A DNA stretch of 64,000 bases, taken from positions 2,666,001 to 2,730,000 of the forward strand of contig NZ_CP118610.1 in NCBI RefSeq assembly GCF_028993555.1. The letters run 5' to 3'. Position 1 is the stretch's first letter, and each line of letters begins with the position of its first letter. Below are positions 8,576 through 53,840 of the stretch, in pieces. The DNA is from Ensifer adhaerens. Its GTDB lineage: Bacteria; Pseudomonadota; Alphaproteobacteria; Rhizobiales; Rhizobiaceae. Under the pieces are notes generated by a model, which did no database searches, was not told the origin of the DNA, and saw only the letters and a program-made list of their open reading frames with translations. The position numbers and the translations under genes are program-made.

Positions 8576-8629
8576 GGCGGAGACGAGAAAGGGGCGCAGC
8601 TTTCGCCCATACTCCACTCTGGTCCTTGA

Positions 8630-9640: not shown

Positions 9641-9641
9641 A

Positions 9642-13335: not shown

Positions 13336-13338
13336 CGA

Positions 13339-14259
13339 ATGGCCACCGTCGGGCACATAGTCTCGCGTACTCCCGCTGGTGAAGTGCTTTCACGCGCGCA
13401 GCAGCGCGCCATGCTCGTTCCCGACTGCCTGGTCGAAGCGCGACGGATCGCCAACACCGTGATCTCCGGCTGGCATGGCCGGCGCAAGCGCGGCATCGGC
13501 GAAAATTTCTGGCAGTTCCGGCCCTATAGCGACGGCGAAAGCATGTCGCGCATCGACTGGCGCCGCTCGGCCCGCGACGACCACACCTATGTCCGCGACC
13601 GCGAATGGGAAGCAGCGCACACCATCTGGCTATGGGCGGATCTTTCCCCGTCGATGATGTACAAGTCGAAGCTCGGCGCCGTCTCCAAGGAAAGCCGCGC
13701 GCTGGTGCTGATGCTGGCGCTCGCCGAAATTCTCGCGCGCTCCGGCGAACGCATCGGTTGCCCCGGCATCATGGAGCCGATCTCGGCTCGCAACGCCGCC
13801 GAACGGCTGGCGACGGCAATCATGCTGAGCCCGCTTGCAGAGGGCCTCCCCGATACCGGGATGATCCGCAGCGCCAGCGATCTCGTGCTGATTGGCGATT
13901 TTCTCGACCCGGCGGAAAGGATCATGGACCGCCTCGGTCCGCTGGCACGACGGGGGTTGCGTGGCCACGTGGTCGAAATCGCCGACCCCGCAGAAGAGGT
14001 GTTTCCCTATAGCGGCCGGACCGAGTTCACCGATCCGGAGACCGGCGAGAAGCTGACGGCCGGCCGCGCCGAAGTTCTGCGCGAGGACTATCAGCGCGCC
14101 TATGTCAGCCGCCGTGACAGTCTGGGCGTAACCCTCCGCCACCTCGGCTGGACCTTCACCCCGCATAGAACCGACCGGCCCGCCTCCGAGGCGCTCGTCG
14201 CCGTGCACACCTATCTTTCCGGCATGCCCGGACGCGCGACGCACGGGGGCCAGCTATGA
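13339..14259 (+). CDS. DUF58 domain protein
   Basis: A 306-residue protein whose central part carries the DUF58 signature: RRKRGIGENFWQFRPYSDGESMSRIDWRRSARDDHTYVRDREWE (about residues 48-92). A VWA-like fold follows (LWADLSPSM), whose metal-site DxSxS motif is intact as DLSPS. No transmembrane segment is seen, so it is probably a cytoplasmic VWA-type partner of the upstream MoxR ATPase. It starts three bases after moxR and overlaps the following gene by four. Confidence 0.9.
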   Translation: MATVGHIVSRTPAGEVLSRAQQRAMLVPDCLVEARRIANTVISGWHGRRKRGIGENFWQFRPYSDGESMSRIDWRRSARDDHTYVRDREWEAAHTIWLWADLSPSMMYKSKLGAVSKESRALVLMLALAEILARSGERIGCPGIMEPISARNAAERLATAIMLSPLAEGLPDTGMIRSASDLVLIGDFLDPAERIMDRLGPLARRGLRGHVVEIADPAEEVFPYSGRTEFTDPETGEKLTAGRAEVLREDYQRAYVSRRDSLGVTLRHLGWTFTPHRTDRPASEALVAVHTYLSGMPGRATHGGQL

Positions 14260-17081
14260 GCGGCTTGCCCTTCCTCTTTACCAATCCCGCCATCCTCGCC
14301 GCGCTGGTGGCCCTGCCGGTCATCTGGTGGCTGCTGCGCATGACGCCGCCACGACCTGCGGCCGAAGTCTTCCCGCCGCTGCGCATCCTGGCGTCCGTCA
14401 TGAAGCGCGAGGAAACCCCGGCGCAAAGCCCCTGGTGGCTGACGCTGCTGCGCATGCTGATGGCCGCCGCGGTGATCCTGGCGATTGCCGATCCGGTGTT
14501 CAACCCGCGACAGAACACGCTTTCTCCCGCTGGCCCGCTGGCGCTCGTCATCGACAACAGCTGGGCGACGGTCTCCGACTGGGATCGGCGGGTCGAAGCC
14601 GCCAATGCGCTTATCGACGATGCGGAGGCGAAGGACCTGCCGGTATCGATCGTCTTCACCACCGACCGGCAGCACGATGCGACCCCGGCTTCCGCTGCCA
14701 GTGCGCGCGATCGCCTCGCTGCGGCGCAGCCGCAACCGCTACCAGCCGTGCGCGATCAAGCGCTCGCCGCCATGAAAGCAGCCCTCTCGGGCACGCCCCC
14801 CGGCACGCTTGCCTTCCTCAGTGATGGTATCGAGGCCGGGGACGGTCAGACGATGCGTCAGGTCACGGAGATTGGCGCTGCCAACGTCCGCCGGATCGAA
14901 GGCAATGCAGAAAGCGCCATCGCGCTCACATCCGCGACCAATGAAAACGAGGGCATGCGGGTCACGGCGTCGCGTTTGCCGCTTGGCGAACCGCGTGCCT
15001 ATTACGTCTTTGCCCGCGACGCGCGCGGCACAGCCATTGCCGAAGGCGAACTCCGCTTCGGTGCAGGCGCCACGACGGCGAATGCTCTGCTGAAAGCCCC
15101 CTTCGAACTGCGCAACGACTTCGCACGTCTGACGATCGAGGGCCAGGCGACGGCCGGCGGTATCCACCTGCTCGACGATGGCAATCGCCGTCGTCGCGTG
15201 GCGCTGCTGAGCGGCGAGGTTCACCAGTCGCAGCCGCTGCTTTCGCCGCTCTATTACATCAAGCGGGCGCTAGAACCGCATGCCGACCTGATCGAGCCGC
15301 GGGAGGAAGCAATCGGCAAGGCGATTGCCGAGCTTCTCGCTCAAAATCCGTCGATCCTTGTCATGGCCGACGTCGGCCGGTTGCCGGACGAAAGCTATCC
15401 GCTGGTCACGCGCTGGCTGGAAAATGGCGGCATGCTCGTTCGCTTTGCCGGCCCGAGACTAGCGGGTGCGCCTGCCGACGATCCGCTCGTGCCTGTCGTG
15501 CTCAGGCAGGGCGAACGGTCTCTCGACGGCGCCCTCTCCTGGTCAGAGCCGCAGCCGCTTGCCGACTATCCGTCGTCCAGCCCCTTTGCCGGCCTCGAGC
15601 ATCCGCGCGATGTCCTCGTCAAACGCCAGGTGCTGGCGCAGCCGACACCGGACCTGGCCGAACGGACCTGGGCCAACCTCGCCGACGGCACGCCGCTGGT
15701 CACGACAGCCGAACGCGGGCGGGGACGCATCGTGCTTTTCCACGTGAGCGCCGATCCGGGTTGGTCGAACCTGCCGATTTCAGGCTCCTTCGTCGACATG
15801 CTGCGCAGGTCCATTCAGCTTTCACGTGCCGGCGGCATTGCTGGCGACCAGACAAACAAGGCGCAGACCCTGCCACCCTATCGCCTGGTAAACGCCCGGG
15901 GAGAGCTGACCACGGAGACGGGCAGCGCCCGGCCGCTTGAAATCACCCCCGGAGTGGCGCCAACCGTTTCCGCAGACACACCGCCTGGCCTCTATGGCTC
16001 GGAAGAGGGTTTCGTTGCCAACAATCTTCTCCCCGACGGCGGCAGCCTCGCTCCGATCAGAGGCAATCTCGTCAGTGAACGCGCGGAAGGGCTGGAAGGC
16101 GTGCGCCCGTTCTCGATCCGGCCATATCTCTTCGGGCTTGCACTGATGCTTTTCCTGATCGACACGTTGATCGTGCTTTACATGGCGGGCGGCCTCACAG
16201 GATTGCGCCGCCGCACTGCCGGTGGCGCCGCCGCGGCAGCCGTGATTGCAACCCTTGGCCTCGCCACGCTTGGTGTTACTGCACTGGCACCCACGATTGT
16301 TCACGCGCAGGATAGTCAGCCCAGCGACGAAGAGACATTGCAACGCCTCGACACGACCCACCTTGCCTATGTCATCACCGGCGAGGCCGAGGTCGATCGA
16401 TTGTCGGAACAGGGCCTGCTCGGTCTCAGCAACTACCTGACCTATCGCACAGCCCTGGAACCGGGGGCGCCTGTCGGCGTCGATCTGGAACAGGACGAGC
16501 TGGCGTTCTATCCGATTATCTATTGGCCGGTTTCGGCCACGGCGCCGATGCCGAGCAGCAGGGTGATGAGCCGGATCGACGCCTATATGCGCAACGGTGG
16601 GACCGTCCTCTTCGACACGCGCGACCAGTTTTCATCACTCACGCCTTCGGCGGCAGGTGACAGCCCCAATGTGCAGCGCCTTCAGGAAATGCTGAACGGC
16701 CTCGACATTCCACCGCTGGAACCGGTGCCCTCCGACCACGTGCTGACAAAGGCCTTCTACCTGCTTTCGAATTTTCCTGGCCGTTATTCCGAGAGCCAGT
16801 TGTGGGTGGAAGCCGCCCCCAATGATGCCGCGGAACAGAGCAACCGGCCGGTACGCGGCGGCGACGGCGTCACGCCGATCATGATCACCGGCAACGACTT
16901 CGCCGGCGCCTGGGCTGTGGACGCCAACGGCGCGCCGCTTCTGCCGACGGTGCCGCCGGACGAAATGCAGCGCGAATATGCCTATCGGGCGGGCGTCAAC
17001 ATCATGATGTACATGCTGACCGGCAACTACAAGTCCGATCAGGTTCATGTGCCGGACCTCCTCCAGAGGCTTGGGCAGTGA
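14256..17081 (+). CDS. BatA N-terminal / DUF4159 membrane protein
   Basis: A 941-residue multidomain protein. Residues 1-80 match the aerotolerance-regulator (BatA) N-terminus, with two membrane segments (LAALVALPVIWWLL and LMAAAVILAIADPVF). A VWA-like region follows, with a degenerate metal motif DNSWAT near residue 105. A third and a fourth membrane segment lie near 630-670, and the second of these ends in a signal-like AxA (IVHAQD). The last 240 residues form a DUF4159 domain (THLAYVITG...NGGTVLFDTRDQFSS), probably periplasmic. It may be a fusion of proteins that are separate elsewhere. Envelope stress or assembly is a family-level guess. Confidence 0.88.
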   Translation: MSGLPFLFTNPAILAALVALPVIWWLLRMTPPRPAAEVFPPLRILASVMKREETPAQSPWWLTLLRMLMAAAVILAIADPVFNPRQNTLSPAGPLALVIDNSWATVSDWDRRVEAANALIDDAEAKDLPVSIVFTTDRQHDATPASAASARDRLAAAQPQPLPAVRDQALAAMKAALSGTPPGTLAFLSDGIEAGDGQTMRQVTEIGAANVRRIEGNAESAIALTSATNENEGMRVTASRLPLGEPRAYYVFARDARGTAIAEGELRFGAGATTANALLKAPFELRNDFARLTIEGQATAGGIHLLDDGNRRRRVALLSGEVHQSQPLLSPLYYIKRALEPHADLIEPREEAIGKAIAELLAQNPSILVMADVGRLPDESYPLVTRWLENGGMLVRFAGPRLAGAPADDPLVPVVLRQGERSLDGALSWSEPQPLADYPSSSPFAGLEHPRDVLVKRQVLAQPTPDLAERTWANLADGTPLVTTAERGRGRIVLFHVSADPGWSNLPISGSFVDMLRRSIQLSRAGGIAGDQTNKAQTLPPYRLVNARGELTTETGSARPLEITPGVAPTVSADTPPGLYGSEEGFVANNLLPDGGSLAPIRGNLVSERAEGLEGVRPFSIRPYLFGLALMLFLIDTLIVLYMAGGLTGLRRRTAGGAAAAAVIATLGLATLGVTALAPTIVHAQDSQPSDEETLQRLDTTHLAYVITGEAEVDRLSEQGLLGLSNYLTYRTALEPGAPVGVDLEQDELAFYPIIYWPVSATAPMPSSRVMSRIDAYMRNGGTVLFDTRDQFSSLTPSAAGDSPNVQRLQEMLNGLDIPPLEPVPSDHVLTKAFYLLSNFPGRYSESQLWVEAAPNDAAEQSNRPVRGGDGVTPIMITGNDFAGAWAVDANGAPLLPTVPPDEMQREYAYRAGVNIMMYMLTGNYKSDQVHVPDLLQRLGQ

Positions 17082-17091
17082 GGGCTGATCG

Positions 17092-19161
17092 ATGACTTAT
17101 GGTTTTGCTCCGCTGCTTCCGCTGGTGTTCTTCGTGCCGCTCCTGGTCGTCGCGGCGCTGTTGATCGCCTATGGCCTGTGGCGAAAGATACGCGGCGCCT
17201 GGCTGCGCGCCCTCGCCTTGGCCGCACTCGCCTTGGCGATTGCCAATCCGTCCATCTTCGTCGAACTGCGTGACCCGCTCTCGACAATCGTCGCAATCGT
17301 GGTTGACCGCAGCCAGAGCCAGCAGAATGGCGACCGCACCGAGCAGACCGATCGTGCGGTCGAGGGCCTGAAGGCGCGGCTGGCGGCGATACCTCTGATC
17401 GAGCCCCGCATCGTCGAGGCCAAGACCGATCCGGCGAGCGTTTCGCCGGCGACCAACCTCTTCTCCACGCTTGCAACCGCGCTCTCCGATGTTCCGCCGG
17501 CGCGCATCGGCGGCGCCATCTTCGTGACCGATGGCCAGATCCATGACGTGCCGGACGTCGCCCGCAAACTGGGCTTCGACGCCCCGGTTCACGGGCTCAT
17601 CACTGGCAAGCCTGATGAATTCGATCGGCGTGTCGAGCTCATCAACCCGCCGCGCTTCGGCATCGTCGGTGAAGAGCAGAAGCTCTCCTTCCGGGTCGTC
17701 GATGACGGTGCCGCCCCTGGCGGAACCGCGGAAGTGAGCATCCGTCTCAATGGCAATGAAATCGCCCGGGAACGGGCCGAGCCGGGCACCGACGTCCCTT
17801 TCAGCTTCAAGGTCACGCGCGGCGGCAACAACGTGCTCGAGTTCGCGGTGGATGCGGTTCCCGGAGAGGTGACCACGACCAACAACCGTGCGGTCCACGT
17901 ACTCGACGGCATTCGCGAAAACCTGCGCGTCCTGCTCGTATCCGGCGAACCTCACGCCGGTGAGCGCGCCTGGCGCAACCTGCTGAAGTCCGATGCGGCA
18001 GTCGATCTGGTGCACTTCACCATTCTGCGCCCACAGGAAAAGCAGGACGGCACCCCGATCAACGAATTGTCGCTGATCGCCTTCCCGACACGTGAACTGT
18101 TCGTCGACAAGATCAACGAGTTCGACCTGATCATCCTCGACCGCTACCAGCATCGCGGCCTGCTGCCGATCCTCTACTACGACAACATCGCGCAATATGT
18201 GGAGAATGGCGGGGCGCTGCTGATCGCCGCCGGCCCGGAACATGCCGGCGACGATTCGATCGCTGCAACGCCGCTCTCGGCGGTGCTGCCGGCCGCGCCC
18301 ACGGGTGTCATGAACGAGAAGGCCTTCTTCCCCCGCCTGTCGGAGGAGGGAAAGAAACATCCGGTCACCCGTGGCCTCGAAGGTTCCGACAGCGAACCGC
18401 CGCACTGGGGCCGCTGGTTCCGTACGGTCGATGTCGACAGGCCGCAGGGCAACACGGTGATGGAAGCGGCCGACGGCAAGCCGCTGCTTGTGCTCAACCG
18501 TGTGGGCAAGGGCCGCGTCGCCATGCTGCTCTCCGACCAGGGCTGGCTTTGGGCGCGCGGCTTCGAAGGCGGCGGTCCGCATGTCTCGCTCTATCGCCGC
18601 ACCGCCCATTGGCTGATGCAGGAACCTTCGCTCGAGGAAGAAGCGCTGACCGCGCGCGCCAGGGGCCGCACGCTGGAAATCACCCGCCAGACCATCGACG
18701 GCGACCCGGGTCCCGTTTCACTCGTCTCCCCCTCGGGTCAGAAGCAGGAAGTGAAGCTGACCGAGCGCCAGCCGGGTCTCTACTCGGCCGAACTCGCGAC
18801 GACCGAGACCGGTCTGTTCGAGATGGCCAATGGCGAACTCACCGCACTCGCCCATGTCGGCGATCCCAATGCGCCCGAGTTCAAAGCAGCGATCTCGACC
18901 GAGGACAAGCTGCGCCCGTGGGCGGAAAAGACGAAGGGACTGGTGCGGCGTCTCGCAAGCGCCGACGGCCCGCTCGATCTGCCGACGGTCCTGCCGGTCA
19001 GGGGCTCGATCCGTTCAGCCGACGATCAGCGCCTTTCCATCCGCATGACGGACGAAACCGTGTTGAAGGGCATCAACTCGCTGCCGCTGTTTACCGGGCT
19101 TCTCGGGCTTGCCGCACTGCTCTTCCTGATCTCGGCCACCTGGTATCGCGAGGGACGATGA
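17092..19161 (+). CDS. Large membrane protein with VWA/GATase-like region
   Basis: A 689-residue protein with two N-terminal membrane segments (LVFFVPLLVVAALLIAYGLW and LRALALAALALAIAN), a large extracytoplasmic region, and a C-terminal anchor LFTGLLGLAALLFLISATWY ending with a basic tail. After the second segment comes IVAIVVDRSQSQQNGDR, a VWA-type DxSxS motif. The middle (LIAAGPEHAGDDS, VLLVSGEPH) resembles class I glutamine-amidotransferase-like folds used as structural domains. It lies ten bases after the DUF4159 gene and overlaps the GNAT gene by four, so it is part of the same operon. Confidence 0.85.
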   Translation: MTYGFAPLLPLVFFVPLLVVAALLIAYGLWRKIRGAWLRALALAALALAIANPSIFVELRDPLSTIVAIVVDRSQSQQNGDRTEQTDRAVEGLKARLAAIPLIEPRIVEAKTDPASVSPATNLFSTLATALSDVPPARIGGAIFVTDGQIHDVPDVARKLGFDAPVHGLITGKPDEFDRRVELINPPRFGIVGEEQKLSFRVVDDGAAPGGTAEVSIRLNGNEIARERAEPGTDVPFSFKVTRGGNNVLEFAVDAVPGEVTTTNNRAVHVLDGIRENLRVLLVSGEPHAGERAWRNLLKSDAAVDLVHFTILRPQEKQDGTPINELSLIAFPTRELFVDKINEFDLIILDRYQHRGLLPILYYDNIAQYVENGGALLIAAGPEHAGDDSIAATPLSAVLPAAPTGVMNEKAFFPRLSEEGKKHPVTRGLEGSDSEPPHWGRWFRTVDVDRPQGNTVMEAADGKPLLVLNRVGKGRVAMLLSDQGWLWARGFEGGGPHVSLYRRTAHWLMQEPSLEEEALTARARGRTLEITRQTIDGDPGPVSLVSPSGQKQEVKLTERQPGLYSAELATTETGLFEMANGELTALAHVGDPNAPEFKAAISTEDKLRPWAEKTKGLVRRLASADGPLDLPTVLPVRGSIRSADDQRLSIRMTDETVLKGINSLPLFTGLLGLAALLFLISATWYREGR

Positions 19162-42787: not shown

Positions 42788-44467
42788 CTAGAACAGGCCC
42801 TCGATATAGCCCTGCTCGTTCAGGAAGATCTTCTCCGACGACGGCACCTTGGGAAGACCGGGCATGGTCATGATCTCGCCGGTGATGACCACGATGAAGC
42901 CGGCGCCGGCCGCAAGCCTTACCTCGCGGATCGGCACCGCATGGCCCGTCGGCGCGCCGCGCAGGTTCGGATCGGTCGAGAAGGAGTATTGCGTCTTCGC
43001 CATACAGATCGGCAGGCGGCCATAGCCCTGCTCTTCCCAGGTGCGCAGCTGGTCGCGCACCGTCTTGTCGGCGATCACCTCGCTTGCGTGGTAGATGTCC
43101 TTGGCGATCGTCTCGATCTTGTGGAACAGCGACATGTCGTCAGGGTATAGCGGCGAGAACTGCGAATGGCCGGCTTCGGCGAGTTCCGCAACCCTGCGCG
43201 CCAATTCCTCGATGCCGGCCGAGCCCTGGGCCCAATGCCGGCAGAGCACGGCTTCCGCGCCAAGCGTCGCGACATAATCCTTGATCGCCTGGATCTCGGC
43301 GTCGGTATCGGAAGTGAAGTGGTTGATCGCAACGACTACCGGCACACCGAACTTCTTGACGTTCTGCACATGGCGCCCGAGGTTGGCGCAGCCCTTGCGC
43401 AGTGCCTCCAGGTTTTCCTTGCCGAGATCGTCCTTCTTGACACCGCCATTCATCTTGATGGCACGAACGGTCGCGACAAGCACAGCTGCATCCGGCTTCA
43501 GCCCCGCCTTGCGGCACTTGATGTCGAAGAATTTTTCCGCACCAAGATCGGCACCGAAACCGGCTTCGGTGACCACATAGTCGGCGAGCTTCAACGCCGT
43601 GGTCGTCGCGATCACCGAGTTGCAGCCATGGGCGATGTTGGCGAAGGGCCCGCCGTGGACGAAGGCGGGATTGTTTTCCAGCGTCTGCACCAGATTCGGC
43701 TGCATCGCATCCTTGAGTAGCACCGCCATCGCGCCATCGGCCTTGATGTCGCGGGCAAAGACCGGGGTCTTGTCGCGGCGGTAGCCGACAATGATGTTGC
43801 CGAGCCGTTGTTCGAGGTCCTTGAGATCGGTTGCCAGGCAGAGGATCGCCATGACCTCGGAGGCCACGGTTATGTCGAAACCGGTTTCGCGCGGATAGCC
43901 GTTCGCCACACCGCCGAGCGAGCCGACGATATGGCGCAGTGCCCGGTCGTTCATGTCCATCACCCGTCTCCAGGCGATGCGTCGGACATCGATATTCTGC
44001 TCATTGCTCCAATAGATATGATTGTCGATCAACGCGGCGAGCAGGTTGTGCGCCGAGGTGATCGCATGGAAATCGCCAGTGAAATGGAGGTTTATGTCCT
44101 CCATCGGCACGACCTGCGCATAACCGCCGCCGGCTGCCCCCCCTTTGACGCCGAAGCAGGGCCCGAGCGAGGCCTCGCGGATGCAGACGATCGCCTTCTT
44201 GCCGATACGGTTGAGCCCGTCGCCGAGGCCGACCGTCGTTGTCGTCTTGCCTTCGCCGGCGGGCGTCGGATTGATCGCGGTCACCAGGATCAGGTGACCA
44301 TTCTTTTTCTCGCGCTGTCGCGCAATGAAGTCGGCGCCGATCTTTGCCTTGTCGTGGCCATAGGGCAAAAGATCTTCCGCGGGAATGCCGAGTGCAGCCC
44401 CGATCTCCAGGATCGGCTTTTTCTTCGCCGCGCGGGCAATCTCGATATCGGACTTAACCTCCGTCAT
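42788..44467 (-). CDS. fhs: Formate-tetrahydrofolate ligase
   Basis: ATP-dependent synthesis of 10-formyl-THF from formate. The 559-residue enzyme has the P-loop [18 protein letters not shown] (about residues 68-85), [58 protein letters not shown] and the C-terminal [43 protein letters not shown] precedes the ATG at 44467, and the start [19 protein letters not shown] fits. The upstream extension of the frame runs through a repeat-like spacer and is rejected. Confidence 0.96.
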
Positions 44468-44596
44468 GACATGTCCCCTCCCCAGGGTCTCGTTTTCGTC
44501 CGCGCCTTCGAAGGCGCAGTTCGCGATGCCCGAGCGGGATGAGGAAACGTGCCTGCGGCTTCCGCCCGCATTCCGCTCTAACTCAATAAATCTGAA

Positions 44597-44621
44597 GGCG
44601 GCCGCCTCGATTGCGGCCACC
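44597..44621 (-). terminator. Weak terminator after the DUF2333 gene
   Basis: GGCGGCCGC (44597-44605) pairs with GCGGCCACC (44613-44621) with one mismatch. On the minus strand TTCAGATTTATT follows. The only end signal I see for the five-gene AAA+ operon. Confidence 0.45.
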
Positions 44622-44638
44622 CTCCTTGCCGTTCTGCC

Positions 44639-45865
44639 TTAGCGCGCGAGGATGTCACGCATCTCGACGATGTTGGAGCGTACTCGCAGCGTATAGAAGC
44701 CCATCGTCGCCAGATGCGTCGGCATGATCCAACCTGCTTCCTCGCCATTGGAGATGATCCATGGCTGGATGCGGAGTGCTGCGCGCAGCTGCTTGATCGT
44801 TTCCGTCCAGATCGGCAGCAGGCCGCGCTGGGCAACGACGTTGTCGAAGTCGGCGCCGGCGGCCGAGAGAATGCCGTAATAGCCGTAGAGCTGGCCATAG
44901 GCGAACCAGAAGCGGTCGTCGGCGCGCGTGTCGAACCAGCCGCCATTGTGGTTTTCCGAGCGCTCGCGCAGGATCGCCGAGGTGTTGCCAAGGTCATTGG
45001 CGACGCGGTCGAGGAACTCGACCAGGTTGTCGGAGCGGCCGTCGAAGATCGCCTCGCACTTGCTGAGCGTGGCGTTGAAGGACCTCAGATCCTTCATCGC
45101 CGCCCGATAGAAGCTCGGCGTCGGCGTTTTGGGGCCGAACGGGTTCAGGCCGAAATACCAGGTCTCCTCATCGAACTGCATGTTGCCGCGCGCGCTCTGC
45201 AGGGCGTTGTTGATGCCCGAGGTGCCACGCATACGACCGAGCGAATCGACGAGCTCCACCGACGTCCGGCGGATCGCCTGGTTGATGCCGCGCTGGAACG
45301 ACGCCTTGTTGTCGAGCCAGGGCGTGTCGTCCCAGTCGAGCCCGAAGAAGCCGAGCTTGTAAAGCAGCATCGACGAGATCCAGGCATTCTCGTTGACATT
45401 GAAATCGATCAAATCAGCCGTGACGTCGACGATCGCCGAAGTCTGGCAGACCGTGCCGGCCGGCAGCTGGACGGCGGCCAGCGCCTCCGGCGTCGATTCC
45501 ATCGGCTGCGTCGCCACGCCGGCGAGGTTATTGGCGGCACCGCCGGTCGTCGACTGACCGGTCGACGTCGTACTGGGACCGCTCATCGGCGAGCCGGCCG
45601 GCACCTTGCGTTCCGCCAGCTTGTAGCGGTCGACATAGTCTTCGTTGAAGTTCGTCCAGGCCTGGGTCTGCCAGATGAAGTAGCCGTAGAACAGGATCAG
45701 CCCGAGAAGAATGAGACCGATCGGTCCCTTGATGATCCAGCTGCGCTGCCGGTACCAGTTGCCCGCCGCGACGAAGGGCCAGAGCAGCCAGGCAACGACG
45801 AGCCCGATGCCCCGGCCGATCGCGGTAAAGACGCGCTGGAAAAACGCAACGATCGGATCGAACAT
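44639..45865 (-). CDS. DUF2333 family inner-membrane protein
   Basis: A 408-residue protein of the DUF2333 family. It is anchored by N-terminal hydrophobic segments (GLVVAWLLWPFVAAGNWY and GPIGLILLGLILFYGYFIW, residues 20-66), with a Ser/Thr/Gly linker (about 92-115) and a large C-terminal domain (WISSMLLYKLGFFGLDWDDTPWLDNKASFQRGI...) probably outside the cytoplasm. It is the last gene of the AAA+ operon, three bases after the DUF6638 gene. No enzymatic motif is visible. It is the only obvious membrane component of the set. Confidence 0.88.
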   Translation of the reverse strand: MFDPIVAFFQRVFTAIGRGIGLVVAWLLWPFVAAGNWYRQRSWIIKGPIGLILLGLILFYGYFIWQTQAWTNFNEDYVDRYKLAERKVPAGSPMSGPSTTSTGQSTTGGAANNLAGVATQPMESTPEALAAVQLPAGTVCQTSAIVDVTADLIDFNVNENAWISSMLLYKLGFFGLDWDDTPWLDNKASFQRGINQAIRRTSVELVDSLGRMRGTSGINNALQSARGNMQFDEETWYFGLNPFGPKTPTPSFYRAAMKDLRSFNATLSKCEAIFDGRSDNLVEFLDRVANDLGNTSAILRERSENHNGGWFDTRADDRFWFAYGQLYGYYGILSAAGADFDNVVAQRGLLPIWTETIKQLRAALRIQPWIISNGEEAGWIMPTHLATMGFYTLRVRSNIVEMRDILAR

Positions 45866-45868
45866 GTC

Positions 45869-47158
45869 CTATTCCTCTCTGAGGCCGTAAAGCTTGTGGC
45901 GGAAGGCCGCCTTGTCTTTGAGATATGTGCCGGTCAGCGTCGCCACAACATATTCCTTGAAACGTTCGCTGTATTGTTCGTAGGCGTCGTAGAATCCCTG
46001 CTTGTCGAAGACGAAGCGCGAGACGAAATCACGAGGCACGAGCTGCGATATCAAACGGTTGACCAGCCACTGGTCAGCGTGTGCGGGTGCCGCACGCACC
46101 AGCATGAAGCGGTTTTCCGGTGCGACATCCTGCATCTTGATCGTGCCGGTCGCCGAGATCATGCGGATCATCTCCTGCAGGAACGGGTAGGCGCCGTCCC
46201 TGGCGACCGCTGCCGCATTGCGGTGCATCCAGGTCTGCAGCCAGATCCGGTCGGCATTGGCGAGATCCGCGGCCGGGTCGGTCTCGTGGATCAGGCCGCG
46301 CACGGTCATGTCGGCGCGATGCTGGTATAGCCCGGACTCTTCCACCCAGGAGGCCTGCGGCAGCTGCAGCCGCTTGGTCGAGGCGAGGAAATCATAGATA
46401 CGCGCTGGGTCGTTGATGGCGATGTAGCTGACCTGCCAGGGCCTTGAGCGGCGGAAGCCGGGCACGGACGGGTCGCAGATGACCGTCGTCGTCTTGTCGT
46501 CCAGGAAAACGTAGACGCCGCCGAAGTGATTGGCCCAGAAGGCTTCGTGGCGGAAGACGAGCTGATCCGGGACCAGGGCGTTCTGGCGGATATCGCCGGT
46601 GAGCTTGGCGAGCTCGACCATGCGGCTGAGCATCTCGTCGTCGGCCCAGGCGGTCGGCACTTTCTTCAGCCGGTCGACCAGGCCGCGCAACTCGGCAGCC
46701 TTGCCGAGCATATCTTCTGCCGAGAGAACTCGGAACCGCACCTCGTTGATCGACAGCAGATCGTCGATGTCATCGACGATCGAAACCGAATCCTCGATCT
46801 CGCCGTAGAGCGCGTCCTTGATCGTGATCGCATTGATCGCGCGGCTGTTGGCGTTGAAGAACTCGTGCATCAGCGCCGCGGTGTTGGAGAAGCTGGTGTG
46901 CACCACCGGCAGCTCCGCCTGCTCCGGCGTCATGATGATGAAGCGGCGGTTGACCCGGTTCGGATCGAGATAGTCGCGATCCCCAAGCTCCTCGGCGATC
47001 TCGGGCGAAAAACCGGTCATGTCGATGCTGAACTTCGACAACGCCGTCGAGCGCAGTCCGAAGCCTTCGAGCGCCTTGTTGTAGCGCGCGATCAGATGCG
47101 GCTCGGCGATATCGAGCAGCCGCCCATAGATCAATTCGGCTTCAAGCAGACGTTTCAT
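45869..47158 (-). CDS. DUF6638 family protein (AAA+ operon)
   Basis: A 429-residue soluble protein that I associate with DUF6638, from memory. Features seen are a conserved-looking start MKRLLEAELIYGRLLDIAEPHLIARYNKALEGFG, a run of Ile/Asp-rich helices (GEIEDSVSIVDDIDDLL) and a C-terminal helical block ending in YLKDKAAFRHKLYGLREE. There are no membrane segments or known catalytic motifs. It lies 19 bases after the AAA+ gene and three before DUF2333. Function unknown; it probably works with the ATPase. Confidence 0.82.
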   Translation of the reverse strand: MKRLLEAELIYGRLLDIAEPHLIARYNKALEGFGLRSTALSKFSIDMTGFSPEIAEELGDRDYLDPNRVNRRFIIMTPEQAELPVVHTSFSNTAALMHEFFNANSRAINAITIKDALYGEIEDSVSIVDDIDDLLSINEVRFRVLSAEDMLGKAAELRGLVDRLKKVPTAWADDEMLSRMVELAKLTGDIRQNALVPDQLVFRHEAFWANHFGGVYVFLDDKTTTVICDPSVPGFRRSRPWQVSYIAINDPARIYDFLASTKRLQLPQASWVEESGLYQHRADMTVRGLIHETDPAADLANADRIWLQTWMHRNAAAVARDGAYPFLQEMIRMISATGTIKMQDVAPENRFMLVRAAPAHADQWLVNRLISQLVPRDFVSRFVFDKQGFYDAYEQYSERFKEYVVATLTGTYLKDKAAFRHKLYGLREE

Positions 47159-47177
47159 CGGTCAGCTCTTCTCATCA

Positions 47178-49100
47178 TCACCCCTGCCACCGGCCATCGC
47201 GTTTCATCGCCTCGATCTCGCGGATCGCCTTTTCGCGCTGGCGCTCGCGGCGGATGATGTCGGTGACGGCGGCATCGTCTGATTTGTCGGTGTAGCGGAA
47301 CTCGCTGTCGGCGTAGCGATTGATCTCCTGCAACACCATGTCGATCGTGATTGGGCCGCGCAGTGCCTCGATCATCGCCTTCTTCTCGTCGTAGCCCTTG
47401 TGCATGAACGAGCCGGCATCCTTGAACCAATCATCCGGCAATTCGACATCCATGGCCCGGAGCTTGATCGCATCGGTGATGTTCTTGATCGCCCGGCCGG
47501 TAAAGCGTGGTTCGGCCTCCTTGATCATGTGCAGGTAGGCGCCGACATCGGCAAGCGAGGCGATCGCGCCCCTCTCCTTCTCGTAGCGCTCCCAAACGGA
47601 CACGAGGCCATCCTCCTTCGGCCGCGCGTGCTCGGCATAGGACTGGGCGACCGCGCGCTTGATCTCCTGGCCCTCGAACAGCTGATGCTCGCCGAGCGGG
47701 ATCTTGTGGTTCTTGCCCACAAGCAGCGCGAAGATGTCGATATAGTCGTCTTCCGTCTGCGGCCCGTCGACCAGCCAGCGGGCGCCGGCGCGCTGGCGCA
47801 GCGCGTCATCGACATTCTCAGGATAGTTGGAGAACATGCCGAAGGTGCAGTTGCCGCGCACCACGGTCGAGGCGCCGGCGAAGCTCTCCATCAGCACCGC
47901 CGTCACTTCGTGCTGGCCGGCAGAGGCGCGATCGTCGGAACGCTTTGCAGCCACCTGGTCGACATCGTCGATCGTGCCGAAGCCGATCGCCCGCGGGTTG
48001 ATGACGTTGTTGACGAATTCCTTGCAGTTCTGCCCGGACTTGCCCTGGTAGGAGGAGATCTGGTCGACGCCGAAATTCTCGTAATGGAAGGCGTAGCCGG
48101 CGATCTCGCAATAGTCGTTGAGCATGCCGGCGAGCATCTGGATAAGGATCGTCTTGCCGGTGCCCGGCATGCCATCGCCGATGAAGGTGAAGAGAAAGCC
48201 GCCGAGTTCGACGAACGGGTTCATCTGCCGGTCGAAGTCATAGGCCATCAGCATCTTGGCAAGCTTCAGCGCCTGGTACTTGGCAATATGGTTGCCGATG
48301 ATCTCCTCGGGCTTCTTGAAGGTCATCACCAGAGGCTTGCGCTTCTGGCCAGGCGCCACGTCGAAACCGTTCAGCGTGAAATCGTCCTGATCGAGCCGGA
48401 TATGCACATTCTCGAAGCTCTGCAGACCGGTGAAACGCGCCTTGCGCGCGATCAGCCCCTCGACCGCCACCCGCGAAAAGGCGCGTGCCCGCGCCGTCAG
48501 CGCCAAGTCGTCCGGTGCCCCGGCAATGCCACGGTCGAGCGCCGACACCAGGCTCTTCAGCGCATCCTGCGGCGTGTCGAACAGGAAATCGGGCTCGACC
48601 GCATCGTCAACCGGTTCGCCTTCACCGGCAAGCGTTGAGCCGACATAGGCAGCAAGCGTGAAAGCCGCGACATAGGCAGAGGCCGAAAGCAGCGCCTTGA
48701 ACTGGTTCGCCTCGTCTCCGGCAAGCGGTGACGTCGCATTTTTCGCCTGCAACTGTTCCAGGCTCGTCTGGCGGGCAAAGACGTCGGCGACGGCGAGTGC
48801 GACCTGGATGCCGCGGCGCGTGCGGTAGAGCACCGCATGCTGGGCCGGCGACAACATCGGATCGCCCTGGCGCACCGACTGGATGGTCTTTGTCAGCTCG
48901 ACCTCGCGCGTGCGGCGCTGGCCACCGGTCGACACCGTCGACACGAAGCGGCGGCCGGTGCCGGCAAGCGCCGTGCCGGCGGCAGGATCATCGCGCTCAA
49001 GGATGATGAGCTTGGTCACCAGACCCTGCGCCACTGCCTGATGCTTGGCGATCTCGTCCTCGTGCAGCGTCGTCAGCCCCGTGTTGAGTGTCATCGTCAA
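47178..49100 (-). CDS. AAA+ ATPase of a five-gene uncharacterised operon
   Basis: A 640-residue protein. The N-terminal 240 residues hold a hydrophobic stretch (LLSASAYVAAFTLAAYVGSTL, about residues 137-157) that may associate with membrane. The AAA+ module follows: Walker A GDGMPGTGKT (308-317), Walker B IGFGTIDDVDQVA (372-384), sensor 1 GNCTFGMFSNYPENVDD (417-432) and an arginine-finger-like RQRAGARW (435-442). The C-terminal 140 residues are helical, with a KAIREIEAMKRDGRW end. I cannot place it in a named AAA+ clade. It overlaps the preceding gene by four bases. Confidence 0.88.
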   Translation of the reverse strand: MTMTLNTGLTTLHEDEIAKHQAVAQGLVTKLIILERDDPAAGTALAGTGRRFVSTVSTGGQRRTREVELTKTIQSVRQGDPMLSPAQHAVLYRTRRGIQVALAVADVFARQTSLEQLQAKNATSPLAGDEANQFKALLSASAYVAAFTLAAYVGSTLAGEGEPVDDAVEPDFLFDTPQDALKSLVSALDRGIAGAPDDLALTARARAFSRVAVEGLIARKARFTGLQSFENVHIRLDQDDFTLNGFDVAPGQKRKPLVMTFKKPEEIIGNHIAKYQALKLAKMLMAYDFDRQMNPFVELGGFLFTFIGDGMPGTGKTILIQMLAGMLNDYCEIAGYAFHYENFGVDQISSYQGKSGQNCKEFVNNVINPRAIGFGTIDDVDQVAAKRSDDRASAGQHEVTAVLMESFAGASTVVRGNCTFGMFSNYPENVDDALRQRAGARWLVDGPQTEDDYIDIFALLVGKNHKIPLGEHQLFEGQEIKRAVAQSYAEHARPKEDGLVSVWERYEKERGAIASLADVGAYLHMIKEAEPRFTGRAIKNITDAIKLRAMDVELPDDWFKDAGSFMHKGYDEKKAMIEALRGPITIDMVLQEINRYADSEFRYTDKSDDAAVTDIIRRERQREKAIREIEAMKRDGRWQG

Positions 49101-50245
49101 ACCTCGCTCACGACCTGGTTTCCGGAAATGACGTGGACCTTGTAGTCGCCAAAGACCTGCTCCGCCTCGCCGGCGGCATAGAGCGCCTGGTAGGCGTCGT
49201 GTGGCACCAGCGCATGCTTTTCGTAGGACGAGACACCCATGCGCGTCGCCTCCAGGTTGGCAGTGTCGATGTGGAATTCCTCCTGCGCCGGCGTCGATGA
49301 CCAGAAGCCGCGCTTGGCCGGGCGCTCAGACTTCGAGAAGACCTCCTGCACCGTCCAGGTCAAAAGCCAGGCATTCTCGACTTTACGCACCTTGGAGAGG
49401 ATATCGTTGATGCGCGCGTTGTTCTCGGTGATCCCGGCCGAATAGAAGGGGCCGAGCACGATGCGACGCAGCTGCTTCGGGTGCAGCTCGTCAAAATCCT
49501 TGTCGAGATTGGTGGCGATCGTCACCGGCGTCAGCGAATAGCTGCTGTTCTTGGAGGCGAAATCGTCGAAGCGGCTGGCAAGCTCGGGATTGAGCAAACC
49601 GCCGACCGGTAATGGAATCTCCACCTGCGGATTGAGCTTGCCGTCCTCGGTCACCAGCATCTCGACGATCTTTTCGGAGGAATCCTCGATCGTGGCCATG
49701 TAGACCATCGGCAGGGTATTGGCACCGTCAAAGGCGCCCCAGCTCACGATGTAATAGGGACGCATGGTCTTGGAATTGACGGCGACGCGGATGGTCTCCG
49801 GCAGGATGAAGGGCGAGAAGATCTCACCCTTGCCGATCTGCTCCAGATAAAGCCGCTCGGCCATGCGCGTCTGCAAAGCCTCGGGAAAAGCCTTCTGCCT
49901 CAGGATGAAATCGACCATTTCATCACGCAGCGCATCGGCCGAGGGAATGTCGGCGAGCCGCTTTGCGGCCGTCTGGCGATCGTTCTCCAGTTCCAGCACG
50001 TTCTGGAACACCGGAAAGCCGCTCTCGGCGCGCGAAATCCGGAACTGGTCGACAAAGCCGATCCGGTTCTCCCAGCAATCGATCGAAGCTTTCAACCTGC
50101 TGAGATAGGGAACGATCACTTCGCCGACAACGGTGTTGCGATAAAGCGGCGAGTTGCGATCGCCGAGGAAGAGTTCGAGCCCGGCGAGTGCGGCGTGGAT
50201 CGACGCGAAATACTGTGCGACAGCAGATGAAGCCGCGACTTTCAT
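49097..50245 (-). CDS. Conserved hypothetical protein (AAA+ operon)
   Basis: A 382-residue protein without signal peptide or clear membrane segment. It begins MKVAASSAVAQYFASIHAALAGLELFLGD, a helical region, and its middle (FSPFILPETIRVAVNSKTMRPYYIVSWGAFDGANTLPMVYMATIEDSS) is mixed alpha/beta. I recognise no family. It overlaps the AAA+ gene by four bases (ATGA), so the two are translationally coupled and probably interact. It lies 58 bases after the coiled-coil gene. Confidence 0.82.
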   Translation of the reverse strand: MKVAASSAVAQYFASIHAALAGLELFLGDRNSPLYRNTVVGEVIVPYLSRLKASIDCWENRIGFVDQFRISRAESGFPVFQNVLELENDRQTAAKRLADIPSADALRDEMVDFILRQKAFPEALQTRMAERLYLEQIGKGEIFSPFILPETIRVAVNSKTMRPYYIVSWGAFDGANTLPMVYMATIEDSSEKIVEMLVTEDGKLNPQVEIPLPVGGLLNPELASRFDDFASKNSSYSLTPVTIATNLDKDFDELHPKQLRRIVLGPFYSAGITENNARINDILSKVRKVENAWLLTWTVQEVFSKSERPAKRGFWSSTPAQEEFHIDTANLEATRMGVSSYEKHALVPHDAYQALYAAGEAEQVFGDYKVHVISGNQVVSEV

Positions 50246-50303
50246 GCAAATCCCCGTGGCGCGTGCCGGGCGGCAAACTCGGTTCGGATCATGCGCTGGC
50301 CGT

Positions 50304-51392
50304 TCACTGCTTCACGTAGTTGGCAGTGTTGTGCTTGTCCATGACAGCCTGGAAGCGGCGGGCAAAGGCATCGTCTGCCAGCTTCTTGCGGCGCTGGATA
50401 TCCTGCGTCGAAAGCATGTTCTTTTCATGCATTTCCAGGAGATCGCCGATGTGGCGCTGCGCTGCGGCACCGATGCCGGCCATCGTCTCTTCGGCCGCCG
50501 TATCGACCTGGCTGCCGAGCGTGTTGATCTTGTGGGCGACATCCTGCTGGGCGGCGGTCTTCAAGGAATCTTCGAGCGCCTTGTAGAGCACGATGCGTTG
50601 TTCGGTATCGATCGTCAGCTTGTTGATCAGCGTGTTCTGCGCGGCGATCTGGTTGTTGAGGGAATCGACGAAGGTCTGGAACATCGAGGTGTAGCGTTCG
50701 AGCGTCTGGCTCTCGGCGAGCAGTTCCTGCTCCTTGGCCTGCTTCTCGTTGTATTCGGTGGCAAGGGCCGAACGCTCGCCTTCAAGCTCGGTGCGGACCT
50801 TCTGCTCCGTGGAGGCGGCAATGCGGTTTTCGATGTCGAGAAGCAGCGGGTTCAGTTCCTCGATGCGTTTCTGCACGGCCTCGAGGTTTGCCATTGTGCC
50901 CTTGCGGCGCTCGATCACCTGGATCAGGCTCTGCTCCGAGGTCTTGTAGCGCTGATCGAGGATCGACTTCTGCTCCTTGAGGATGCCGACGATCATGTCG
51001 GACTTCGAAAGAAGCTCCTGCAGGTTGCCGGCCAGCGACATGTTGCGCACGCGGTCGGTGCGCATGCGTTGCATTTTCTGCTTGGAGAAGATGCCGATGA
51101 ACTTCTCGTAGCCCGTATAGTTCTTCATGCTCTCGAATTCGGAGCCGAAGACATTGGTCGCATCCTCAAGGCCGATGATCAGGTCGGCGATGTTGGCTTC
51201 CATCACCTTCTGCTGGTTGATCACGTCCTGGATACGGGCGTTCTCGATGTCGAAGTTGACGTCGCCCAGCTTGGTCTCGGCCTTGGCGAATTGCTCCAGC
51301 ACAACACCGGATTGCTCGAGCTTGCCGCGCATCTGTTCCACGACGCCCTTTGTCTTCTCGATCTCAGCGTCAAAATTCTGAAGAGTCGCCAT
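50304..51392 (-). CDS. Coiled-coil protein (first gene of AAA+ operon)
   Basis: A 362-residue protein that is almost entirely helical and heptad-rich, with Glu/Gln/Leu repeats such as LLSKSDMIVGILKEQKSILDQRYKTSEQSLIQVIERRKGTMANLEAVQKRIEELN. It has no signal peptide, membrane segment or cysteine-rich site. The C-terminal part includes HIGDLLEMHEKNMLSTQDIQRRKKLADDAFARRFQAVM. It distantly recalls TelA-like helical proteins of tellurite/stress loci, but I cannot confirm this. It heads the five-gene operon; no promoter was identified with confidence. Confidence 0.82.
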   Translation of the reverse strand: MATLQNFDAEIEKTKGVVEQMRGKLEQSGVVLEQFAKAETKLGDVNFDIENARIQDVINQQKVMEANIADLIIGLEDATNVFGSEFESMKNYTGYEKFIGIFSKQKMQRMRTDRVRNMSLAGNLQELLSKSDMIVGILKEQKSILDQRYKTSEQSLIQVIERRKGTMANLEAVQKRIEELNPLLLDIENRIAASTEQKVRTELEGERSALATEYNEKQAKEQELLAESQTLERYTSMFQTFVDSLNNQIAAQNTLINKLTIDTEQRIVLYKALEDSLKTAAQQDVAHKINTLGSQVDTAAEETMAGIGAAAQRHIGDLLEMHEKNMLSTQDIQRRKKLADDAFARRFQAVMDKHNTANYVKQ

Positions 51393-51558
51393 GTCCTGCC
51401 CCTCGATCCATCGTGGCGCGATCCGCCAGCCCAGCCGAATTATTCAGCCTTCGATTGCAGTTATATAAAGGGTGTTTATGGAAAGAGAACAAGCCTGCCG
51501 CGGCGGCTTTTTTCAATCAAACGCTGCAGCGAAGTGCTTGAGAAATCGAAGGCATTGC

Positions 51559-51945
51559 CTATTTGGCGGCCGGCGGCGCCTTGAGATAGGCGATCACGTC
51601 GGCAATCTCCTGAGGCTTCTTGAGACCGGGAAAACTCATCTTGGTCGCGCCGACCATCGCCTTGGGGCTCAAGAGATATTCGCTGAGCGTCGCCTCGTCC
51701 CAGACGTGCCCTGCGGCGCCGAAGGCCTTCATCGCTTCGGAATAGTTGTAATCCGCGACCGACGCGGCCGGCCGGCCGACGACGCCCATCAGGCTCGGGC
51801 CGACGCGGTTTGTCGGCTCGCTCGCCGTGTGACAGGTCGCGCATTTGCGGAACACCGCCGCCCCCGCGGCCGCATCGCCACCGGCCTGCGCGGCCGGCGC
51901 TCCAAGACAGAGACTGAGGAGAAAGCCGGCAACCAGACGTGACAT
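51559..51945 (-). CDS. Small soluble c-type cytochrome (class I)
   Basis: A 128-residue periplasmic cytochrome c. It has a signal peptide (LVAGFLLSLCLGAPAAQA), the haem attachment motif CATCH near residue 37, the helix GPSLMGVVGRPA, and the methionine ligand in MVGATKMSFPGLKKPQEIADVIAYLK near the C-terminus. The ATG at 51945 is preferred because GAGG lies seven bases before it; an ATG at 51957 is in frame. Redox partner unknown. Confidence 0.9.
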   Translation of the reverse strand: MSRLVAGFLLSLCLGAPAAQAGGDAAAGAAVFRKCATCHTASEPTNRVGPSLMGVVGRPAASVADYNYSEAMKAFGAAGHVWDEATLSEYLLSPKAMVGATKMSFPGLKKPQEIADVIAYLKAPPAAK

Positions 51946-51990
51946 GAAAGACCTCATGGGGAGAAGTTCGGGCACAATGGCACCGCGAAT

Positions 51991-52046
51991 GCGGCAATTC
52001 AACGGGCTGCAGCCACCTTCGCGCGCATCCTAAACGACGCGCTGCG
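51991..52046 (+). repeat. Dispersed palindromic repeat, family B, diverged copy
   Basis: GCGGCAATTCAACGGGCTGC, then AGCCACCTTCGCGCGCATCC and ACGACGCGC align with the copy at 26918-26970 with scattered mismatches. Located between the cytochrome c gene and tdk. Confidence 0.5.
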
Positions 52047-52051
52047 TGCCC

Positions 52052-52639
52052 TTACTCGCAGCGCATCAGGTCGTCCCAATGGCGCCGGCAATAGGAGACA
52101 TATTTCTCGTTGCCGCCGACATCGACCTGGGCCCCCTCGCGCACGACCTTGCCTTGACCATCGAGACGCACGACCATCGTCGCCTTGCGGCCGCAATGGC
52201 AGATGGTGCGCACTTCGCGCAGCTCGTCGGCGATCGCCAGCAGCGCCATCGAACCCGGAAACAGCTTGCCCTGAAAATCCGTGCGCAGGCCGTAGGCCAT
52301 GACCGGAATGCCCATCCGGTCGGCGACGCGGGCGAGCTGCCAGACCTGCGCCTCATTGAGAAACTGCGCCTCGTCGACGAAGACGCAGGCGATCTCGCCG
52401 GCACCATCGGAATGAAGCGTTTCGATCAGGGTGTAGATGTCGTCATCGCCATCGAACGGAATGGCGTCGGAGGCAAGACCGATGCGCGAGGAAATGCGGC
52501 CTATCCCCGCCCGGTCGTCGTGTGCTGCGATCAGCATCACCACACGCATGCCGCGCTCCTGGTAGTTGTAGGAGGCCTGCAACAGCATCGTGCTCTTGCC
52601 CGCGTTCATCGTCGCATAGCTGAAATAGAGTTTGGCCAT
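52052..52639 (-). CDS. tdk: Thymidine kinase
   Basis: Phosphorylates thymidine in salvage. The 195-residue type II enzyme has the P-loop MAKLYFSYATMNAGKSTMLL, the DEAQFL motif (FVDEAQFLNEAQVW), and the zinc-binding cysteines CHCGRKA and YCRRHW at the C-terminus. The lasso-type AIADELREVRTICHCG region is complete. The start at MAKLYFSY (52639) is usual; 25 extra codons upstream are rejected. It is divergent from choX, as in related Sinorhizobium genomes. Confidence 0.96.
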   Translation of the reverse strand: MAKLYFSYATMNAGKSTMLLQASYNYQERGMRVVMLIAAHDDRAGIGRISSRIGLASDAIPFDGDDDIYTLIETLHSDGAGEIACVFVDEAQFLNEAQVWQLARVADRMGIPVMAYGLRTDFQGKLFPGSMALLAIADELREVRTICHCGRKATMVVRLDGQGKVVREGAQVDVGGNEKYVSYCRRHWDDLMRCE

Positions 52640-52883
52640 CTTCACCGCGTCCGGTTTCCGTCTCCCGGGTAATGGCGAGCCTTGCCCCGGAAGGCCAGAG
52701 CATGTTTGCGACACCCACAGTTTTTCGCCGGACTAGACCATTTCGTGGACATTGCGACATTCAGCGTCGCATCGTGCACCCCGTTAGCATATTGACGCAA
52801 TACACTTCCTTCGACATCAAAGCGCTTGAATTCGCTATCCAATGGTGTTTGGCTAAAACAATAATAGAGGCAGGGGAACGACA

Positions 52884-53840
52884 ATGAAAAAAGGACTCTC
52901 TCTCAAACTGATGCTCGCGGGCGCCGTTTCGGTCGTCGCCCTCACCGCTCAGCAGGCTGCAGCTGCCGAGCCGGAAAGCTGTGGCACCGTCCATTTCTCC
53001 GACGTCGGCTGGACGGACATCACTGCAACCACCGCGACGGTCTCAACCGTTCTCAAGGGCCTCGGCTACCAGACGGACATCAAGGTTCTCTCGGTTCCGG
53101 TCACCTACACCTCGCTCAAGAACAAGGACATCGACGTCTTCCTCGGCAACTGGATGCCGACCCAGGAGAACGACGTGCGCCCCTATCTCGACGACAAGTC
53201 GGTCGAATCCTTCGGCCCCAATCTGGTGGGCGCCAAGTACACGCTCGCGACCAACGCCAAGGGCGCTGAGCTCGGCATCAAGGACTTCAAGGATATCGCC
53301 ACCAAGAAGGACGCGCTTGATGGCAAGATCTACGGCATCGAGCCTGGCAATGACGGCAACCGCCTGATCATCGACATGGTCGACAAGGACACCTTCAGCC
53401 TCAAGGGCTTCGAAGTGGTCGAATCCTCCGAGCAGGGCATGCTGGCGCAGGTCGCCCGTGCCGAAAAGGACGGCTCGCCGATCGTCTTCCTCGGATGGGA
53501 ACCGCATCCGATGAACGCCAACTTCAAGCTGACCTATCTTTCGGGCGGCGACGACATCTTCGGCGCCAACTTCGGCGGCGCGGAAGTCTTCACCAACGTG
53601 CGCTCCGGCTACACCACCGAGTGCCCCAACGTCGGCAAGCTGCTCACGAACCTCAAGTTCTCGCTCCAGATGGAAAACGAGATCATGGGCAAGATCCTGA
53701 ACGACGGGCAAGAGCCGGACAAGGCTGCCGAAGAGTGGCTGAAGGCCAATCCGACGGTTGTCGACCCGTGGCTTGCCGGTGTGACCGCCAAGGATGGCGG
53801 CGATGGGCTCGCCGCGGTCAAGGCCGCGCTCGGCCTCTGA
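52884..53840 (+). CDS. choX: Choline ABC transporter substrate-binding protein
   Basis: Periplasmic choline receptor of the ChoXWV system. The 318-residue protein has a signal peptide ending QAAAAEPE and the OpuAC-type fold with aromatic-rich choline pocket segments: FSDVGWTDITATTATVSTVLKGLGY, VFLGNWMPTQENDVRPYLDD and IVFLGWEPHPMNANFKLTYLSGGDD. Sequence and operon order match Sinorhizobium ChoX. A strong intercistronic terminator follows, which would favour high choX mRNA over choWV. Choline is fed to glycine betaine synthesis in rhizobia. Confidence 0.95.
   Translation: MKKGLSLKLMLAGAVSVVALTAQQAAAAEPESCGTVHFSDVGWTDITATTATVSTVLKGLGYQTDIKVLSVPVTYTSLKNKDIDVFLGNWMPTQENDVRPYLDDKSVESFGPNLVGAKYTLATNAKGAELGIKDFKDIATKKDALDGKIYGIEPGNDGNRLIIDMVDKDTFSLKGFEVVESSEQGMLAQVARAEKDGSPIVFLGWEPHPMNANFKLTYLSGGDDIFGANFGGAEVFTNVRSGYTTECPNVGKLLTNLKFSLQMENEIMGKILNDGQEPDKAAEEWLKANPTVVDPWLAGVTAKDGGDGLAAVKAALGL

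Follow-up and report, generated by a model that had tools for sequence, protein, structure and literature searches.

Five genes follow one another on the minus strand of a 64,000-nucleotide stretch of the Ensifer adhaerens genome (contig NZ_CP118610.1, positions 2,666,001 to 2,730,000; hereafter, the window), between its positions 44639 and 51392, and are transcribed in the order A, B, AAA, C and D. The third codes for an AAA+ ATPase, C for a DUF6638 protein and D for a membrane protein of the DUF2333 family. As judged from gene order and distribution, the conserved unit is a four-gene core formed by A, B, AAA and DUF6638, and the membrane protein is a partner that recurs but varies, added by lineage. 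By the same comparison, cassettes with toxin or nuclease genes are found again and again at the junction of AAA and DUF6638. We tentatively favour the view that the operon codes for a stress-inducible, membrane-linked AAA+ protein-remodelling machine, and regard this as possible rather than probable.

The original prediction, made from the letters of the window, had taken the five genes for a complete machine and proposed a survey of their neighbourhoods. A scan of GTDB species genomes revealed at least 556 relatives of the ATPase, and the best 80, which lean to the Rhizobiaceae, were fetched with their flanks. The order A-B-AAA-DUF6638-DUF2333, on one strand, was found in 79 of these 80 best-matching Rhizobiales loci; in the remaining one, L049, the contig ends inside DUF6638. 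We conclude from the conserved order that the block is not a product of chance. The genes do travel together, as proposed, but not as an obligate set of five, DUF2333 being separable from the core. Counts given below for 92 loci combine the 80 named Rhizobiales loci with 12 others (L132 to L143), excluding L145 and L146, which are without B, AAA and DUF6638; all these loci are related by descent and the counts are not independent. B was present between A and AAA in all 92 core loci, the level at which B was surveyed. Among 249 genomes drawn across the phylum, DUF6638 and the ATPase profile were found in one and the same set of 18, and A in this set and in two more genomes. DUF2333 occurred in 53 of the 249, only eight of which had the ATPase. 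An earlier survey of the class with a single protein had given 3 of 190 genomes, counting that of the window. In most Rhizobiales loci the operon lies at a constant chromosomal position, with tdk on one side and fhs on the other. C of L138 contains one stop and was left out of alignment A5; L020 and L022, with a stop in the AAA extension, were omitted from alignment A4 and, for the ATPase tree, truncated at that stop.

That the core is found in other lineages without DUF2333, and in some of them with other membrane partners, is what restricts the conserved unit to four genes. Ten genomes have what we call the f24 type of operon: nine of the alphaproteobacterial family f24, which is probably the Rhodobacteraceae, as its named relatives include Roseovarius, Sulfitobacter and Tabrizicola, and G231, from another class. 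In all ten, A-B-AAA-DUF6638 is followed by a protein of the DUF1523 cluster (E = 6.5e-68 for the DUF1523 profile, run on one f24-type member), preceded in eight by an 88-residue, two-segment membrane protein, and no DUF2333 was found genome-wide. These operons thus carry a DUF1523 protein where the window has DUF2333. At L139, the locus of G231, the operon resembles the f24 type and its AAA groups with that of L135 in the tree, which suggests acquisition by lateral transfer. Between the window and the f24-type versions, identity is 47-52% for AAA, 40-43% for A, 27-30% for B and 28-32% for C. AAA and A are thus the most strongly conserved of the four, and this ranking points to A as the closest partner of the motor.

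Replicons of about 0.9 Mb from Vibrio vulnificus and Vibrio parahaemolyticus (two of the four Vibrio records were inspected) carry the four-gene core followed by mfd, and pRlX5 of Rhizobium leguminosarum carries the core with no DUF2333 in the 20-kb locus. The scans of viral contigs gave one locus with the operon, L194, in an IMG/VR contig of 359 kb. There, DUF2333, A, B, two small open reading frames (ORFs), AAA and DUF6638 follow each other in one direction at 2512-18262, with DUF2333 5′ of A (E = 7.7e-91). In two further genomes, G283 (L145, 7437-9719) and G224 (L146, 8120-10547), a divergent A of about 30% identity is followed by DUF2333 between the thymidine kinase and ligase genes; neither genome has an AAA or DUF6638 match anywhere, and neither locus has a B. 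Since DUF2333 lies 5′ of A on the unrelated L194 and is kept beside a divergent A in G224 and G283, its arrangement indicates that it is not a chance neighbour of the core. The A-DUF2333 pair of G283 and G224 could be a reduced form or a separate paralogue pair. L194 may be a huge phage or belong to a reduced bacterium; it also carries genes for FliG, FliM, SmpB, DnaJ and a deformylase, and a spanin-like ORF (PHROG match, 1.2e-4). The single terminase model run, PF03237, matched neither L194 nor the V. vulnificus megaplasmid, and in the GenBank phage set the only matches were short ones, confined to the AAA domain.

D itself belongs to a family that occurs elsewhere mostly without this operon; according to an excerpt of PMC5256989, a DUF2333 gene is a neighbour in a type VI secretion locus of Pseudomonas fluorescens. 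Hydrophobic stretches at residues 15-33 and 41-59 bear out the earlier description of D as a membrane protein. Together with two cysteines, Cys140 and Cys270, that are invariant in 20 alignment rows, they suggest, without proving it, that D has an extracytoplasmic domain.

The AAA+ motifs, originally described as intact, are so only in part. The ATPase retains Walker A, the sensor-1 Asn and the arginine-finger region, but its Walker B reads IDDVD, the second acidic residue being Asp where Glu is usual. The substitution is found in 23 of 23 rows of the diverse alignment A7, and in profile alignment IDDID stands opposite the IDEID of VAT. In pore loop 1, a Y/F-Q-G segment is conserved in A7, and the segment issYQGkS faces the YYG of VAT in the PDB profile alignment. 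The protein is therefore a classical-clade AAA ATPase, but a divergent one: it matches PF00004 (1.1e-10; 42.5 bits against a cut-off of 21.2) and lacks the catalytic Walker B Glu. A profile search of the PDB placed VAT-type Cdc48, Yme1, katanin and proteasome ATPases first, with whole-sequence E-values of 6e-6 to 1e-2. With VAT/Cdc48, Afg2, Yme1, the proteasome ATPases, katanin and Vps4 the window ATPase shares Walker A, an aromatic pore loop, the sensor-1 Asn and the second region of homology. Unlike VAT/Cdc48, it has a single AAA module, an N-terminal part of no known family, Asp in Walker B and the fixed partner genes A, B and DUF6638. One AAA match was found in its 640 residues, and a Pfam search at E up to 1 revealed neither a second AAA module nor a Cdc48 N-domain. 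NCBIfam returned only weak CDC48 and PAN matches (23.6 bits for CDC48, against a cut-off of 802.65). PADLOC 2023 returned its TRIP13 (2.9e-6) and IetA (0.036) models, as expected of any related AAA protein, and the matches of the ATPase in PHROGs were likewise generic. Aromatic pore loops are associated with protein threading, and Asp in place of the Walker B Glu often slows hydrolysis. The ATPase is a plausible motor, as had been proposed.

The partners of the ATPase gave fewer leads. A and B match no family above cut-off in Pfam or NCBIfam, whereas C is a DUF6638 protein (PF20343, 4.1e-75; 253.8 bits against a cut-off of 27) and D a DUF2333 protein (PF10095, 6.4e-18; 65.2 bits against 22). 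Profile searches of the PDB with A, B and DUF6638 gave nothing below an E-value of 0.1, the weak hits being SCM3 for A (0.23), an ARF1 chain for B (0.72) and globins for C (0.18). A, B, C and D found nothing beyond noise in PHROGs and no matching model in PADLOC 2023. A literature search, whose scope excluded subscription papers, preprints and supplementary tables, found no mention of DUF6638. Neither PADLOC nor the literature search recognised a described system, in keeping with the earlier statement that none of the five proteins has an assigned role.

Membership of one of the genes in a described system, such as Ter/TelA, had been named at the outset as a finding that would speak against the original prediction. 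PF05816 (TelA) matched neither A, at E up to 1, nor anything in the window's genome. A resembles TelA in length and helical layout, and hhalign aligned the two end to end and in register over 342 columns, with a score of 27.2 against 16.8 and 19.8 for reversed controls. A could on these grounds be a distant TelA relative, and the operon a Ter/TelA-like system for envelope stress or toxic anions. However, the hhalign probability is only 3.4%, and the alignment is not significant. Moreover, the alignment of A with PspA likewise scores higher (23.8) than its reversed controls (17.3 and 18.6), and coiled-coil composition may explain both results. We therefore consider kinship with TelA improbable. 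The PspA alignment bears in turn on another idea, that A polymerises on the membrane and is disassembled by the ATPase, in the manner of ESCRT-III and Vps4. A helical protein, a classical-clade ATPase and a membrane partner are indeed present, and Vps4 is among the PDB matches of the ATPase (E = 0.007 to 0.01). Yet A has no match to PspA_IM30 in Pfam, its alignment with PspA is out of register at a probability of 2.1%, and no MIT domain was found in the ATPase with Pfam. An ESCRT-III-like pair seems very unlikely.

Upstream of A, in the window and in many Rhizobiaceae, stands the signature of a putative RpoH-type promoter. The consensus for RpoH1 of Sinorhizobium meliloti is CTTGAA-N15-16-CCTATAT, as given in the part of PMC4843759 that cites Barnett 2012, and the window site agrees with it at 10 of 13 positions. 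Many Rhizobiaceae loci have a CTTG box and a box starting with CC upstream of A, 15-16 bases apart, with intervening and flanking bases that vary. With CTTG and CC required and a threshold of 9 of 13 matches, a site was found upstream of A in 46 of 79 Rhizobiales loci, and shuffled sequences predicted 1.85. The same score was reached upstream of B in 0/80 loci, C in 0/80, D in 2/79, the thymidine kinase gene in 0/71, the cytochrome gene in 0/56 and the ligase gene in 3/76. By reading of the rows, 39 of the 46 matches are alike in position and architecture. A scan for sigma-70 promoters gave no site at A. At L057, L060, L068, L070, L074 and similar Mesorhizobium-type loci, a strongly conserved pair of other boxes, CTTTCAATC ... 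CATATAT, precedes A.

The searched parts of the texts of PMC3616915, PMC3989490 and PMC8406287, a scope that excludes their supplementary tables, hold nothing on these genes. An excerpt of PMC3687685 reports an intragenic ChvI-bound fragment in SMc02733 of S. meliloti, and the portion of PMC8343143 consulted equates shmR with SMc02726. If genes are counted from shmR, SMc02733 would probably be gene B; we judged this too thin to use.

In favour of a remodelling machine stand the shared distribution of AAA and DUF6638 over 18 of the 249 genomes, with A in these and two more, the conserved gene order, the classical-clade AAA module with its pore loop, the degree of identity to the f24-type proteins, the membrane partners and the RpoH-like signature. 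According to this reading, the ATPase would form a ring and thread or pull protein through its pore by means of the aromatic YQG loop; with Asp in place of the usual catalytic Glu, it might do so slowly. A would be its main partner, either a helical scaffold or a substrate, B and DUF6638 would be faster-evolving adaptors, and DUF2333 would tether the complex to the inner membrane. The job of the machine might be protein or envelope quality control during stress, with the cassettes as cargo that exploits a conserved, stress-controlled operon. Several findings weigh against this proposal. Per domain, the VAT/Cdc48 matches of the ATPase are weak (i-E 0.087 and 1.1), and its N-terminal part matches no family. 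The cores on the Vibrio and R. leguminosarum plasmids are without a recognisable adjacent membrane gene. As for stress control, the 46 promoter matches come from related loci and are not independent events, and seven of them (L013 and six Mesorhizobium-type loci) look unrelated. The Mesorhizobium-type loci show a different conserved box pair upstream of A, and their regulation may differ from that of the Ensifer type. In addition, one of the ten f24-type loci has the RpoH-like signature (L136, 11/13), and none was found at L190, L193 or L194. If the remodelling proposal is right, a stress-controlled, membrane-linked AAA+ machine is added to rhizobial biology.

Insertions into the operon are concentrated at one place. 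Junctions longer than 400 bp were found in 4/92 loci between A and B, 4/92 between B and AAA, 54/92 between AAA and DUF6638 and 0/81 between DUF6638 and DUF2333. The 54 inserts of this slot comprise 24 with DUF559, 11 with a ParE-like and a helix-turn-helix (HTH) gene, 10 with a ribbon-helix-helix (RHH) and a ParE gene, three with Phd and PIN, an unclassified pair at L035, and one each with AbiJ_NTD4, DUF3825, a HEPN-like protein, a 120-residue membrane protein and a phospholipase D (PLD)-like protein. For each cassette family, a single representative was compared with Pfam; the HEPN-like match is weak, at best 0.0025 and below cut-offs. The label MqsR-like for the L035 cassette was dropped, as Pfam gave no match. 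The cargo lies on the operon strand in 53 of the 54, the sole exception being the PLD-domain gene of L055 (12041-13741, minus strand), which runs opposite to the operon. These are the families of type II toxin-antitoxin pairs and DUF559 nucleases generally; what sets the slot cargo apart is its repeated placement in one junction of a conserved operon.

Cargo of this kind could mean that the operon is a modular immune-type or abortive system, in which the core would sense or process a trigger and the slot would supply an interchangeable effector; copies with an empty slot would be disarmed or depend on an effector located elsewhere. The bias towards toxin or nuclease families (DUF559, ParE and PIN pairs, AbiJ- and HEPN-like genes), on the operon strand, is seen in the Rhizobiales and recurs with different families in the f24-type loci. 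Close relatives also swap cassettes: the slots of eight Shinella loci include DUF559, RHH-ParE, ParE-HTH and empty states. On the ATPase tree, twelve slot states require at least 41 changes, and empty and full states 24, a count that may be inflated since this is a quick tree with weak support for 30 of its 89 inner branches. In the same tree, the ATPase of L044, from a metagenome-assembled genome titled Arenimonas, groups with Ciceribacter; this genome is probably mislabelled or a mixed bin. DUF559 is otherwise rare in the window's genus, nine genomes of which hold three strong copies and a weak one; two of the three strong copies start 122 and 137 bp after the ATPase gene, within the slot. 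Neither these genus counts nor the junction comparison suffers from the bias of a further result, the finding that no slot family has a copy elsewhere in 1.87 Mb, for which the query families had been drawn from the slot. Against an immune role, the slot is shorter than 150 bp in 27 of the 92 loci, the window included, toxin-antitoxin pairs are self-contained, and the fixed tdk-fhs site of most Rhizobiales loci is unlike that of mobile defence islands. PADLOC, for its part, has no models for the four genes other than AAA, and the AbiJ-, DUF3825- and HEPN-like cargo is equally without one. We regard an immune function as rather unlikely.

A plain landing site explains most of the facts cited for immunity. 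The operon would then be a housekeeping one, unrelated to stress or defence, into which selfish toxin-antitoxin and palindrome-edged DUF559 elements insert. The many empty slots agree with this, as does a GC-rich palindromic repeat found in 11 of the 24 DUF559 inserts and often flanking them at either end, which would fit joint movement of DUF559 and the repeat. The palindrome-bearing slots are those of L004, L005, L007, L009, L010, L013, L033, L036, L039, L041 and L051. Distances between cassettes also follow those between the host ATPases for DUF559 (r = 0.64) and RHH (r = 0.84), with none of 2000 permutations as high, as for old residents. The correlation is lower for ParE (0.42), HTH (0.23) and HigB-type toxins (0.17), in sets (ParE, 14; HigB, 13) that include some cross-hits between the two toxin types. 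As DUF559 and RHH track the ATPase and HTH and HigB hardly do, these distances indicate that some cassettes are old resident alleles and that others are exchanged. That the other internal junctions are nearly free of inserts, and that DUF559 is rare elsewhere in the genus, speaks against mere landing, which we hold to be rather unlikely. We give a similarly low probability to an AAA+ chassis with a plug-in slot, whose core would sense stress or invasion and control the resident cassette, lineages swapping cassettes as alleles. If the remodelling proposal is right, the operon also offers a clean system in which to ask why toxin and nuclease genes keep entering one junction, whether by hitchhiking, by addiction or as true effectors.

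Features of the operon in the window (positions are those of the window; aa, amino acids)
Feature	Position	Strand	Description
Promoter signature, RpoH-like, CTTGTT-N16-CCTTTAT	51465..51493	-	72 nt before the start codon of A; putative
Gene A	50304-51392	-	362 aa; helical/coiled-coil; core component
Gene B	49097-50245	-	382 aa; family unassigned; core component
AAA gene	47178-49100	-	640 aa from TTG; classical-clade AAA+ ATPase; core component
Cargo slot AAA/DUF6638	47159..47177	-	19 bp; empty in the window
Gene C, DUF6638 (PF20343)	45869-47158	-	429 aa; core component
Gene D, DUF2333 (PF10095)	44639-45865	-	408 aa; membrane protein; lineage-specific partner

The five same-strand ORFs lie where they had been placed, and the gaps of 58, -4, 19 and 3 bases between them are correct for the listed start codons. 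An ATG two codons into the AAA gene (at about 49094), as used in relatives, is the more likely start than the TTG; the product would then have 638 residues and the B/AAA gap would be +2. The window ATPase is 97% identical to an Ensifer protein and is present as a single copy in the 7.77 Mb genome. No Rfam match was found in 44000-53000. On the same strand, the operon is flanked upstream by what we take to be a thymidine kinase gene and a small cytochrome-c-like ORF, and downstream by a presumed formate-tetrahydrofolate ligase ORF. In the S. meliloti record L192 (CP090106.1), thymidine kinase and ligase are annotated at matching places. L192 and other Sinorhizobium and Shinella records of 3.5-4.6 Mb are labelled as plasmids and carry the chromosomal neighbourhood that runs from the choline transporter to the ligase; they look like chromosomes mislabelled as plasmids.

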